The position numbers and the translations under genes are program-made. This document shows positions 28,079-34,491 of a stretch of 34,491 nucleotides of DNA, piece after piece. The stretch's first letter is position 1; the number at the start of each line of letters is the position of its first letter. A model generated the notes under the pieces. The model saw only the letters and a list, made by a program, of their open reading frames with translations. It did no database searches and was not told the DNA's origin. The DNA is from Alphaproteobacteria bacterium (lineage in GTDB: Bacteria > Pseudomonadota > Alphaproteobacteria > CAAHEQ01 > UBA3637): NCBI GenBank assembly GCA_017962565.1, contig JAGCVC010000015.1:1-34491 (forward strand), given 5' to 3'.

Positions 28079-28107
28079 AAAAAAAAAGCCGCCTTTTCAG
28101 ACGACTT
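28079..28107 (-). terminator. Intrinsic terminator after the first tRNA copy
   Basis: Minus-strand stem AAGTCGTC / GGCGGCTT (eight pairs, two of them G-U), loop TGAAAA, then a T-run of eight or more. It resembles the terminator at 29342-29368 closely, which shows that the tRNA end and terminator were duplicated together. Confidence 0.8.
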
Positions 28108-28115
28108 AGTTTTAT

Positions 28116-28186
28116 TGGTTGCGGGGGTGGGATTTGAACCTCACGACCTTCAGTTTTATGAAACTTGATAAATTACCAGACTGATC
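28116..28186 (-). pseudogene. Decayed initiator-tRNA (fMet) copy, att-like
   Basis: On the minus strand the sequence from the D-arm (CAGTCTGGTA) through a CAT anticodon loop to the T-arm, CCCCGCA acceptor strand, discriminator A and CCA follows initiator tRNA. The 5' acceptor strand that should pair with CCCCGCA is missing, the D- and anticodon stems are mismatched, and the T-stem has an extra A. It is therefore not a functional tRNA. The 38 bases 28116-28153 are identical to 29377-29414. It ends ten bases from the glycosyltransferase stop. Confidence 0.7.
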
Positions 28187-29071: not shown

Positions 29072-29148
29072 CGCCGCTTTCTTTCAAAATCGCCTTTGGT
29101 GCGAAAGGCGACTGGAAGCTGAAAACTACTCATAGGAATAGCGGGCAT
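29068..29148 (-). CDS. Possible 26-residue upstream reading frame overlapping the glycosyltransferase start
   Basis: It starts at ATG 29146-29148 (a second ATG follows five codons later), runs through the 3' part of the structured leader and ends in a TGA that overlaps the glycosyltransferase ATG by two bases (ATGA). The peptide is rich in Arg/Lys at its end (RTKGDFERKRR). No clear ribosome site precedes it; AAGGAGG lies about 39 bases upstream inside a hairpin. It may be a coupling or leader peptide, or chance. Confidence 0.3.
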   Translation of the reverse strand: MPAIPMSSFQLPVAFRTKGDFERKRR

Positions 29149-29289
29149 ATTGATTTGAACAGGACTAAGCCTGCAAACTTATTAGCCTCCTTCCAGTCAT
29201 ATCGACCAGAAGGAGTTTTTACACCAATAGTATCTATTGGCAACCTATGAAGAGTTTTTCAGTCCTCGGGGCAGACACCAACCTGCCTT
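29091..29289 (-). ncRNA. Structured leader RNA upstream of the glycosyltransferase gene (candidate cis-regulatory RNA)
   Basis: Minus-strand RNA from the promoter at 29296-29324 toward the glycosyltransferase. A long-range helix of about 17 pairs (29244-29262 with 29119-29136; one mismatch, one bulge) closes a junction holding three hairpins: 29224-29240 (seven perfect pairs), 29187-29215 (twelve pairs, loop GATAT) and 29141-29174 (five of six pairs). A 5' hairpin lies at 29270-29287 and a 3' hairpin at 29091-29110 (CGCCTTT / AAAGGCG). The pairs that are not Watson-Crick are G-U only in the minus-strand RNA, which fixes the sense. GACTGGAAG in 29190-29198 can pair instead with 29110-29118. 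I do not recognise a known riboswitch class. Confidence 0.6.
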
Positions 29290-29295
29290 AAGGAC

Positions 29296-29324
29296 ATATT
29301 AAACAAATACGCCTAATAAGTCAA
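29296..29324 (-). promoter_or_regulatory. Sigma-70 promoter of the structured leader and glycosyltransferase
   Basis: Minus-strand TTGACT (29319-29324), 17-base spacer, TAATAT (29296-29301). Predicted start near 29289, giving a leader of about 218 bases before the glycosyltransferase ATG. Confidence 0.7.
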
Positions 29325-29341: not shown

Positions 29342-29368
29342 AAAAAAAGTCGCCATTACTGACGACTT
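29342..29368 (-). terminator. Intrinsic terminator after the second tRNA copy
   Basis: Minus-strand stem AAGTCGTC / GGCGACTT, loop AGTAAT, then seven T. It is a duplicate of the terminator at 28079-28107. Confidence 0.85.
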
Positions 29369-29376
29369 GTGATTTT

Positions 29377-29422
29377 TGGTTGCGGGGGTGGGATTTGAAC
29401 CTCACGACCTTCAGGTTATGAG
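29377..29422 (-). repeat. 3' end of an initiator-tRNA gene: attachment site of the integrative element
   Basis: 46 bases on the minus strand run from the anticodon loop (CTCATAA, anticodon CAT) through the T-arm to the encoded CCA. To its right the match to tRNA stops abruptly and AT-rich element DNA with the integrase gene begins. This is the usual layout of a displaced tRNA 3' end left by a tyrosine-integrase element. An intact tRNA-fMet would be expected at the far (right) end of the element, outside the window. 38 bases are identical to 28116-28153. Confidence 0.8.
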
Positions 29423-29643: not shown

Positions 29644-29856
29644 TTAGCAAATATATTCATCAGGTGTTTCTTTGGTGTTTTCTATTATAAAATCATCTAA
29701 ATCCTTTTGGGAATATCTAATAGCACCACCAAGTTTTACATATTTTAGTTTTGTTCGCTGATTATATCTCCAATTATTCAAAGTTTTCGTTTGTAATCCA
29801 AGATATACTGCTGCTTCTTGTGTAGTAAGTAATTTTTTAGTTTCTAATTCCATCAT
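29644..29856 (-). CDS. Excisionase/AlpA-type HTH DNA-binding protein
   Basis: The protein has 70 residues. LLTTQEAAVYLGLQTKTLNNW is a MerR/AlpA-like helix-turn-helix, followed by the wing KYVKLGGAIRYSQKDLDDFI typical of the excisionase (HTH_17) family. Such proteins bend att DNA to direct excision or activate int. It overlaps the end of the integrase gene by 20 bases; AAGGAG eight bases before the first of two tandem ATGs lies inside the int frame. The order int then xis in one unit suggests joint control. Confidence 0.85.
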   Translation of the reverse strand: MMELETKKLLTTQEAAVYLGLQTKTLNNWRYNQRTKLKYVKLGGAIRYSQKDLDDFIIENTKETPDEYIC

Positions 29857-31021
29857 TTTTATTCTCCTTGTTTGTATCTAATAATGTATGAACTGCATTT
29901 TCCATTGAAAGTTGGACTGGGTCTTGTGTAAGAAAAGCATAAACCTGTGTAGATTGAATGCTTTTATGTCCTAATGATGCTTGAATTGCCAACATAGACT
30001 CTTTGTTTATTGCCTGATAACACCCCAAGGTCTTTCTTAAATCGTGAAAGTGAAAATCTTTCAGTTGTGCTTCTACCTTAAACTTATCCCAATAATTGGA
30101 ATAATCAACGATATGACCTGAATTACTACCTTTTGTGCTTGGAAAAACAAAAAGTGATTTGTCGGCAAACTCCTTTTCTCTTCTCAAAAGCAATTCTTTT
30201 GCTAATGGTATCATTGGAATACTCATTTCATCACCATTTTTGGATTTTGAAGCATCTATGCTAATTAAATTATTTTCAAAGTCCAAATCGTTCCATTCTA
30301 ATGAAGATAGATTCCCTTTTCTTAAACCACTATATATTGCAAGCATAACATAGTCTTGAAAATCAACTGGATATTTTTTTAAGGTGTCTAAAAACAAACC
30401 AACTTCTGTTTTTTTCAAAAATCTTTTTCTTGGATGTAGTCTGTGCTTTTTGATGCCTTTTGTTGGATTTTCTCCATTCCATCCCCAGTAAATCATTTTG
30501 TTATACATTGCTCTCACTTTTTCTAACAATCTATTAGCACAGGTTTCGCCAGATTGTTTAGTTGTTTTATTGAAAAAATCTTCCCACTCTATTATTCCTA
30601 TGGAACTAATTTTCCTATTAAAAAACTTTTTACAATGATTGTTTATATCTTGTTCGTCATATTTCCAAGATTTTTTACAAACCTTACTATATTTTTCCAT
30701 CCACAAATTATACATTTCTTGGAATGTTGCTTCATCTCTAATTTTTCTTTTTTCTGCCATTGGGTCAATTCCTTCTGCTACTTGTGCTTTGATAATTTTT
30801 ACTTTTCTTCTGGCATTATCAACACTCATATCAGGAAATCTTCCAATTTTAATTCTTTCTACTCTTCTGCCAATTCTTTTCTGTATGTAGAATGTTTTTG
30901 TTCCTAATGGAGATACAGATAAGTAAAGTCCTTCTTCTATTGTATCATAATAAAAAGTTATATTTGACTTTGCATTCAAGTTCATTAAATTAGTTTTATT
31001 AAAAGTAATTTTTTCTTTCAT
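29837..31021 (-). CDS. P4-type tyrosine recombinase (integrase)
   Basis: The protein has 394 residues. The N-terminal ~90 residues (YDTIEEGLYLSVSPLGTKTF, IGRFPDMSVDNARRK) are the DUF4102-like arm-binding domain, followed by a SAM-like core-binding domain and the catalytic domain. Catalytic residues R234 (SGLRKGNL), H326 and R329 (HDLRKTLG), H352 (LGHKSIQSTQVY) and Y361 are all present, so the enzyme should be active. It integrates the element at the tRNA end 0.4 kb away. A strong ribosome site AAGGAG and a promoter with TATAAT precede it. Confidence 0.95.
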   Translation of the reverse strand: MKEKITFNKTNLMNLNAKSNITFYYDTIEEGLYLSVSPLGTKTFYIQKRIGRRVERIKIGRFPDMSVDNARRKVKIIKAQVAEGIDPMAEKRKIRDEATFQEMYNLWMEKYSKVCKKSWKYDEQDINNHCKKFFNRKISSIGIIEWEDFFNKTTKQSGETCANRLLEKVRAMYNKMIYWGWNGENPTKGIKKHRLHPRKRFLKKTEVGLFLDTLKKYPVDFQDYVMLAIYSGLRKGNLSSLEWNDLDFENNLISIDASKSKNGDEMSIPMIPLAKELLLRREKEFADKSLFVFPSTKGSNSGHIVDYSNYWDKFKVEAQLKDFHFHDLRKTLGCYQAINKESMLAIQASLGHKSIQSTQVYAFLTQDPVQLSMENAVHTLLDTNKENKNDGIRN

Positions 31022-33809: not shown

Positions 33810-34421
33810 CTACTCTTCTTCCTTTATATTATATCTTTTCAAAAAACGATAGAAAGTTGTTTTATTCACATTAAATATACGAGCAATTTGTGCTTTTGGT
33901 ATCTTCTTATTGAGTAATCTTTGTATTTTGGTCTTATTCTTTGACAATTTTAATTCTTTTGATTTATGACCGATTGGTCTGCCAAGTATTCTTCCTTCCG
34001 CTTTTAATCTTGCCATTGTTTCTTTTGTTCGCTGTTGAAGCAATTGTTTTGACAATTCAGCAGTTAAACCAAAACAAAATGCTAATACTTTACTTTGAAT
34101 ATCATTTCCAAGTCGGTAATTTTCTTTCAAAGTCCATACCTGACAATTTTTCTTTAAGCAAGTTTCCAAGATATTAAATAATTCGGTTATTGACCTTGAT
34201 ATTCTTGAAATCTCTGTTGTAATAAGAATATCTCCATCTTTTAATTCATCTAATAATTCTCCCAATTTTCTTTTCTTTAATTTTTTGGAAGATGATATTT
34301 TTTCTTCCACCCATCTATCTATGTGAATGTTGTTTTTATCAGCAAACTGCTGGATAGCAAAGTGCTGGTTTATTTCATTTTGATGTGATGTTGAAACACG
34401 ACAATAAGCAATGTAAGACAT
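33810..34421 (-). CDS. Serine recombinase (resolvase/invertase type)
   Basis: The protein has 203 residues from ATG 34419-34421, chosen because AAGGAG stands just upstream; the frame is open 22 codons further without a site. YCRVSTSHQ places the nucleophile at S10. GDILITTEISRISRS (~63-77) carries the conserved arginines, AELSKQLLQQRTKETMARLKAEGR is the long dimer helix, and a C-terminal helix-turn-helix (KAQIARIFNVNKTTFYRFL) binds DNA. Size fits the resolvase/invertase group, not the large integrases. It could resolve multimers of the element or invert a segment; no obvious crossover site is seen in the window. Confidence 0.93.
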   Translation of the reverse strand: MSYIAYCRVSTSHQNEINQHFAIQQFADKNNIHIDRWVEEKISSSKKLKKRKLGELLDELKDGDILITTEISRISRSITELFNILETCLKKNCQVWTLKENYRLGNDIQSKVLAFCFGLTAELSKQLLQQRTKETMARLKAEGRILGRPIGHKSKELKLSKNKTKIQRLLNKKIPKAQIARIFNVNKTTFYRFLKRYNIKEEE

Positions 34422-34491
34422 TTTAACTCCTTTTTTTACATTGAAAAATAACGATTTCTCTTGACTTTGGAGTTGCGAAAAATCCAAGAAT

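Follow-up and report, generated by a model that had tools for sequence, protein, structure and literature searches.

The question raised by this locus is what kind of element lies between a promoter and the glycosyltransferase-like gene that follows it on the minus strand of the window (i.e., the whole stretch of 34,491 nucleotides that was analysed), and by which principle it might act on that gene. A sequence-only reading had proposed a candidate new structured RNA on the strand of the gene, resembling no riboswitch class familiar to that reader. Folding of the minus strand segment 29091-29289 yielded -71.6 kcal/mol (z = -5.0), with 0 of 200 shuffled sequences being as stable. The plus strand of the same segment is about as stable (z = -5.7), so that fold energy alone cannot pick the strand and the context has to decide; promoter, terminator, downstream gene and conservation together point to the minus strand. 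Rfam comparison of the window RNA gave no family at gathering score, and to this extent the novelty claim endured; as detailed below, the RNA is nevertheless a divergent relative of sRNA-Xcc1 (RF02221) and not a free-standing class. The parts of the window copy are given here in the direction of the putative transcript, whereby a and b denote target words, a' and b' antisense words, and states A and B two alternative folds.

29319-29324, minus strand: -35 element TTGACT, recognised by sequence, 17 bp before the -10 element
29296-29301, minus strand: -10 element TAATAT, recognised by sequence
29270-29289, minus strand: P0, 5' hairpin; its stem covaries (both-side changes in 6 of 6 pairs)
29275-29281, minus strand: P0 loop UUGGUGU, predicted to kiss the terminator loop
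29252-29267, minus strand: GAGG..CUC segment, which carries target word a
29255-29262, minus strand: target word a (CUGAAAAA), assigned by a:a' pairing
29244-29252, minus strand: target word b (CUUCAUAGG), pairing with b'
29222-29243, minus strand: P3, a hairpin variable in sequence and length, from the fold and the variability of the alignment
29187-29215, minus strand: P4, local hairpin holding W1 in state A, from the predicted fold and covariation
29190-29198, minus strand: W1 (GACUGGAAG), 5' strand of the helix closing the three-way junction, assigned by W1:W2 pairing
29110-29198, minus strand: the whole antisense (sRNA-Xcc1-like) three-way junction, matched by model R3 with E=1.2e-6
29143-29187, minus strand: inner junction arm, whose AAUAA..AAUA internal loop is conserved, from covariation of the inner helix
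29159-29174, minus strand: apical hairpin of the inner arm
29126-29142, minus strand: P6, third hairpin; stem 100% paired
29129-29136, minus strand: antisense word b' in the P6 loop, pairing with b
29119-29126, minus strand: antisense word a' (GUUUUCAG), pairing with a
29110-29118, minus strand: W2 (CUUCCAGUC), common to the closing helix and the terminator base, both pairings being conserved
29087-29113, minus strand: terminator-like hairpin, 93.0% paired over 7 pairs in 88 copies
29096-29103, minus strand: terminator loop, predicted to kiss P0
28196-29071, minus strand: downstream gene, probable family-2 glycosyltransferase by a weak Pfam match

Judged by the promoter boxes, similar ones of which precede the homologues, the RNA would start near 29289-29290. 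The window copy has a short U tract of 4 U; the family mean is 7.7 T within the 10 nt past the terminator stem. The start codon of the downstream gene, whose match to Glycos_transf_2 (E=0.014) lies under the curated Pfam cut-off, follows the 3' hairpin after 19 nt.

Conservation was addressed in 43 genomes, which sample the family and also the entire order. A search of their DNA revealed close copies in two of them and fragmentary matches in almost every one, while a covariance model built from 17 homologous copies (R1), i.e., the check proposed along with the initial claim, found the RNA in 38 of the 43 with 1-39 copies per genome. Records that share the core sequence are MAGs of uncultured Alphaproteobacteria, sampled in the rumen and in further gut material; matches to this pattern in non-alphaproteobacterial genomes mostly come without the RNA. 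One copy (L217) was observed in a Gastranaerophilales MAG of the same rabbit-gut series, which probably reflects misbinning. Covariation was measured on 88 distinct copies against shuffled and slid controls. In state B, the three-way-junction form, 91.3% of cells pair as compared to 74.4% upon shuffling, 42 of 48 pairs have both-side changes and covariation amounts to 0.511 (0.191 shuffled; slid controls at most 0.124), which bears out that a structured RNA on the strand of the gene is conserved. State A, consisting of P4 and a longer terminator, likewise covaries (0.508 versus 0.206 shuffled). Among the single elements, a:a' is 97.3% paired with both-side changes in 5 of 6 pairs, the junction inner helix 96.3% (6 of 6), P4 78.6% (4 of 9) and W1:W2 99.1%, the latter for example as GACUGGAAG/CUUCCAGUC and GGUUGGAAG/CUUCCAACC. 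In 87.9% of cells the P0 loop can pair with the terminator loop, and an exchange of A-U to G-C was seen between them.

The long-range helix, the hairpin of about 12 pairs (29187-29215) and the 3' hairpin (29091-29110) were found where the sequence-only reading had placed them, as was the alternative partner strand 29110-29118 next to the 3' hairpin before the start codon. This strand, W2, is predicted to pair either with W1, giving state B, or with the terminator, giving state A, the two folds thus being mutually exclusive. The terminator stem reaches three to four pairs into W2 and its pairing ends abruptly at the next column; the mean terminator energy is -9.3 kcal/mol with W2 free and -4.1 kcal/mol without W2. 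As W2 is unable to serve both helices and both folds covary, the on/off switch envisaged earlier was well founded. Pseudoknot-free folding favoured the P4 state for 55 of 82 copies; the closing helix appeared in a single copy. The long-range helix, initially described as closing three hairpins, is present, but it is more than a scaffold, since it consists of an antisense arm pairing with its own target copy.

The relationship with sRNA-Xcc1 was approached from both sides. RF02221 scores 33.9 bits against the 3' half of the window RNA and 33-42 bits (best 41.9) against four other members of its subfamily, all under the gathering cut-off of 53, so that a match to a known RNA family, which would have spoken against novelty, exists below threshold only. 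Within Pseudomonadota, RF02221 was detected in 47 of 385 genomes of a class sample and in 58 of 398 of a phylum sample, and upstream of these matches the same 5' hairpin is found, with a target word in its loop. R1 detects RNAs of the RF02221 type over their full length in other families, at 27-63 bits (L160 63.4, L142 52.5, L140 49.6, L164 27.2 and L136 26.9 bits). For the opposite direction, a model with an RNAalifold structure (R2) failed because the mixed set of RF02221-type RNAs was misaligned; its place was taken by R3, a small curated alignment with hand-written structure of ten RF02221-type RNAs, none of which stems from this order. Within the window R3 returned the leader RNA with the E-value given above, the next best match having an E of 1.3, and it found 36 of the 38 other loci of the window subfamily. 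The matches obtained with R1 and R3 in both directions show that the window RNA is homologous to the sRNA-Xcc1 three-way junction. Both share this junction and an upstream hairpin with target words. Differences are that the Rfam model spans the junction only, that the window subfamily adds a terminator after the junction as well as the kissing 5' hairpin, and that it precedes other genes and lacks a clear downstream target. In Xanthomonas, integron cassettes carry sRNA-Xcc1 upstream of symE (PMC12444791).

The order of elements in the subfamily is promoter, target, antisense three-way junction, terminator and gene, and target (a, b), antisense junction (a', b'), terminator-like hairpin and gene would thereby form one transcript unit, as far as the arrangement of the sequence tells. 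The same order of promoter, target, antisense and gene is found for C4 of phages P1 and P7 and for CI of P4 (RF01695, RF01394 isrK, RF03163 c4-a1b1): in P4 immunity seqA and seqC flank CI (PMC4825925), P1 C4 follows the order target, antisense, gene (PMC5320573), and Rfam places a1/b1 or isrK upstream and C4 downstream in P4 and P1. Target words upstream of the antisense domain on one transcript, as in C4/CI, are present in the window subfamily, and further common traits are the a', b' arms, a three-stem antisense RNA and private specificity, a 4-nt change being sufficient to separate P1 from P7 (PMC5320573). In contrast, the terminator follows the antisense domain in the window subfamily and precedes it in C4/CI, the putative target genes of the subfamily are mainly surface genes instead of phage antirepressor or replication genes, and it has no detectable sequence match to C4 of P1 or P4: the window RNA contained nothing matching RF01695 (cut-off 45 bits) at E-values of up to 5, and searches of P1 and P4 with R1 and R3 did not detect C4. 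L113 and L115, which belong to a sister subfamily within this order, score 32.3 and 28.7 bits against RF01695, under its cut-off. As this sequence link is weak, working like C4 appears better supported than being a C4. Systems of the C4/CI type are processed by RNase P to an RNA of ~80 nt that acts in trans; processing and antisense action in trans may likewise occur for the window RNA.

Many RF02221-type relatives, unlike the window RNA, precede phage antirepressor or SymE genes. A Pfam check of ten of their downstream genes, picked for a phage-regulator or SymE look, gave three BRO-N, two KilA-N, two pRha, one P22_AR_N, one SymE and one unmatched; at other RF02221-type loci the genes differ, and a good number of them have no clear assignment. 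In 47 RF02221-type loci the antisense arm, taken as the third hairpin plus the following strand, is complementary to its own upstream region with a score of 24.6 (18.5 swapped) and to its own downstream region with 19.8 (16.6 swapped). For the window subfamily the complementarity between target and antisense is locus-specific (20.3 with the own partner versus 14.7 swapped), whereas a downstream copy at the ribosome binding site is weak (15.1 own versus 14.5 swapped). An invariant CUUCC might pair with GGAAG, the Shine-Dalgarno sequence found before many of the downstream genes; this idea was not adopted, as the gene of the window has no GGAAG and as such Shine-Dalgarno sequences may just be common in these genomes. 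Apart from this, a second copy within the same genome (L121; G000 contig 2, 130-335) belongs to a sister subfamily and precedes a lipoprotein gene; here UUAGAAAA recurs directly at the start codon (GGAGTTAGAAAATG) and is complementary to the antisense arm of L121.

Downstream ORFs were available for 82 leaders, 41 of them prepilin-like, 12 lipoprotein-like and 14 others with a hydrophobic N-terminus, hence 67 of 82 are prepilin-like, lipoprotein-like or exported as compared to 55 of 228 other ORFs of the same loci, whereby the classes were assigned by simple sequence rules and two genomes contribute many of the copies. Glycosyltransferase-like genes follow a few copies, among them that of the window. 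In genome G027 many copies are located about 180-215 nt before their gene. About 30 prepilin-like genes of this genome (e.g., L051-L069) each have an RNA copy of their own, and RNA and gene are often separated by another conserved stretch, about 200 nt long. Twenty G027 copies carry 19 different a+b codes; every a word fully matches its own a', and the own a+b words pair at 95% of positions, while only 2% of swapped combinations match fully. Identity among copies is 0.74 in a columns and 0.55 in b columns but 0.96 in other paired columns; such rapid change of the matched words, relative to the remaining RNA, would be anticipated where recognition between copies has to be avoided. Nineteen matched codes in 20 copies thus point to a self-specific antisense action, and these private codes are the main argument for action between molecules. 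Compensatory drift within a purely intramolecular helix could also give private codes; such drift would, however, not obviously be faster in the a and b words than elsewhere.

Considering these findings, we favour, with a probability of roughly 60%, a leader RNA of the antisense superfamily that includes sRNA-Xcc1, built on the plan of P4 CI and P1 C4 and acting by antisense-controlled attenuation. The suggested mechanism assumes that a nascent leader left alone adopts state A, in which P4 holds W1, a and b pair with a' and b' and the terminator forms, a process which would stop transcription before the gene. Occupation of a and b, most probably by the antisense domains of RNAs transcribed earlier from this very locus, would let the junction form instead; in the resulting state B, W2 would be withdrawn from the terminator and the gene would be read. 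Matched, locus-private words would make each copy answer only to itself. In P4, antisense binding causes termination, and the sign of regulation could hence also be the reverse here. What speaks against this explanation is the lack of a strong locus-specific a, b copy at the ribosome binding site, as it exists in P4, P1 and RF02221-type loci. The negative searches for C4 of P1 and P4 with R1 and R3, the short U tract of the window copy and the distance between many G027 copies and their genes also count against it.

Two exclusive folds, a terminator and the conserved AAUAA..AAUA internal loop would equally suit a riboswitch, in which a metabolite or second messenger bound at the conserved junction selects state A or B and the antisense likeness is ancestral, and surface genes are typical of riboswitch regulons. 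We regard this as unlikely, though worth keeping in mind, since among paired columns change is fastest in a/a' and b/b', contrary to what a ligand pocket implies, relatives precede antirepressor genes and have extra downstream target copies, and curated riboswitch models matched neither the window RNA nor its subfamily members. Somewhat less probable still is a stand-alone trans-acting small RNA gene located upstream of the gene by chance: such a gene would have its own promoter and terminator, as is the case here, and sRNA-Xcc1 was seen as an 88-nt sRNA by Northern blot (PMC2996969), but the constant same-strand position before the start codons of dozens of different genes with biased content is not accounted for by this idea, nor is the presence of a, b and a', b' together in one transcript.

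The surroundings of the window copy contain two repeats (28081-28156 and 29342-29417) that are 87% identical, each with a terminator and a tRNA-Met 3' end; an intact tRNA-Met match exists elsewhere in the genome. The repeats, by their sequence probable att sites, bracket the RNA and the glycosyltransferase gene as a 1.26-kb module, adjoined by an integrase (29837-31021), and a serine-recombinase-like protein (PHROG DNA invertase, E=4e-46) is located at the window end (33810-34487). A further locus of the same order (L111, G005 contig 10) has an sRNA-Xcc1-type RNA (48.8 bits) before a Rha antirepressor gene and is a possible phage-side ancestor. The position of the window copy between tRNA-Met repeats next to an integrase, together with antirepressor-linked relatives of which L111 resides in the same family of genomes, would fit the immunity RNA of a prophage or satellite carrying the glycosyltransferase as cargo. 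This reading is nonetheless improbable, as blastn of the window RNA against phage and plasmid records gave nothing similar, the 20-base core pattern of the subfamily has no exact match among 2.9 million viral contigs, and most copies precede pilin-like or lipoprotein genes and not phage genes. A palindrome or mobile repeat that matters at the DNA level and has no function as RNA, for which the many copies per genome and the good folding of both strands could be cited, is hardly credible given the promoter-to-start-codon order, the terminator U tracts, compensatory changes including G-U intermediates and a pseudoknot pairing possible in a transcript only.

For the antisense-controlled leader, the kind of RNA is already known; what surprises is that it extends, with private codes, across a regulon of the host. 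A precedent for many C4-like RNAs per genome are the Group 1 C4-like sRNAs of Acinetobacter baumannii, whose variable a' was taken as co-option (PMC5320573), but these were not reported there as self-matched surface-gene leaders with an attenuator. The work also suggests that sRNA-Xcc1, annotated as trans-acting, may be the 3' part of a leader controlling the adjacent gene. More tentatively, and at somewhat below even odds, a phage-type antisense immunity RNA may have been domesticated into genome-wide, insulated and self-addressed switches, each governing a single one of dozens of pilin-like and other surface genes, their codes being diversified by selection against cross-talk. If this holds true, the antisense logic of P4 and P1 immunity would have been turned into a multi-gene regulatory system of the host lineage, in which up to 39 parallel copies are kept apart by private base-pairing codes, and the leader set would represent a natural collection of orthogonal RNA switches.
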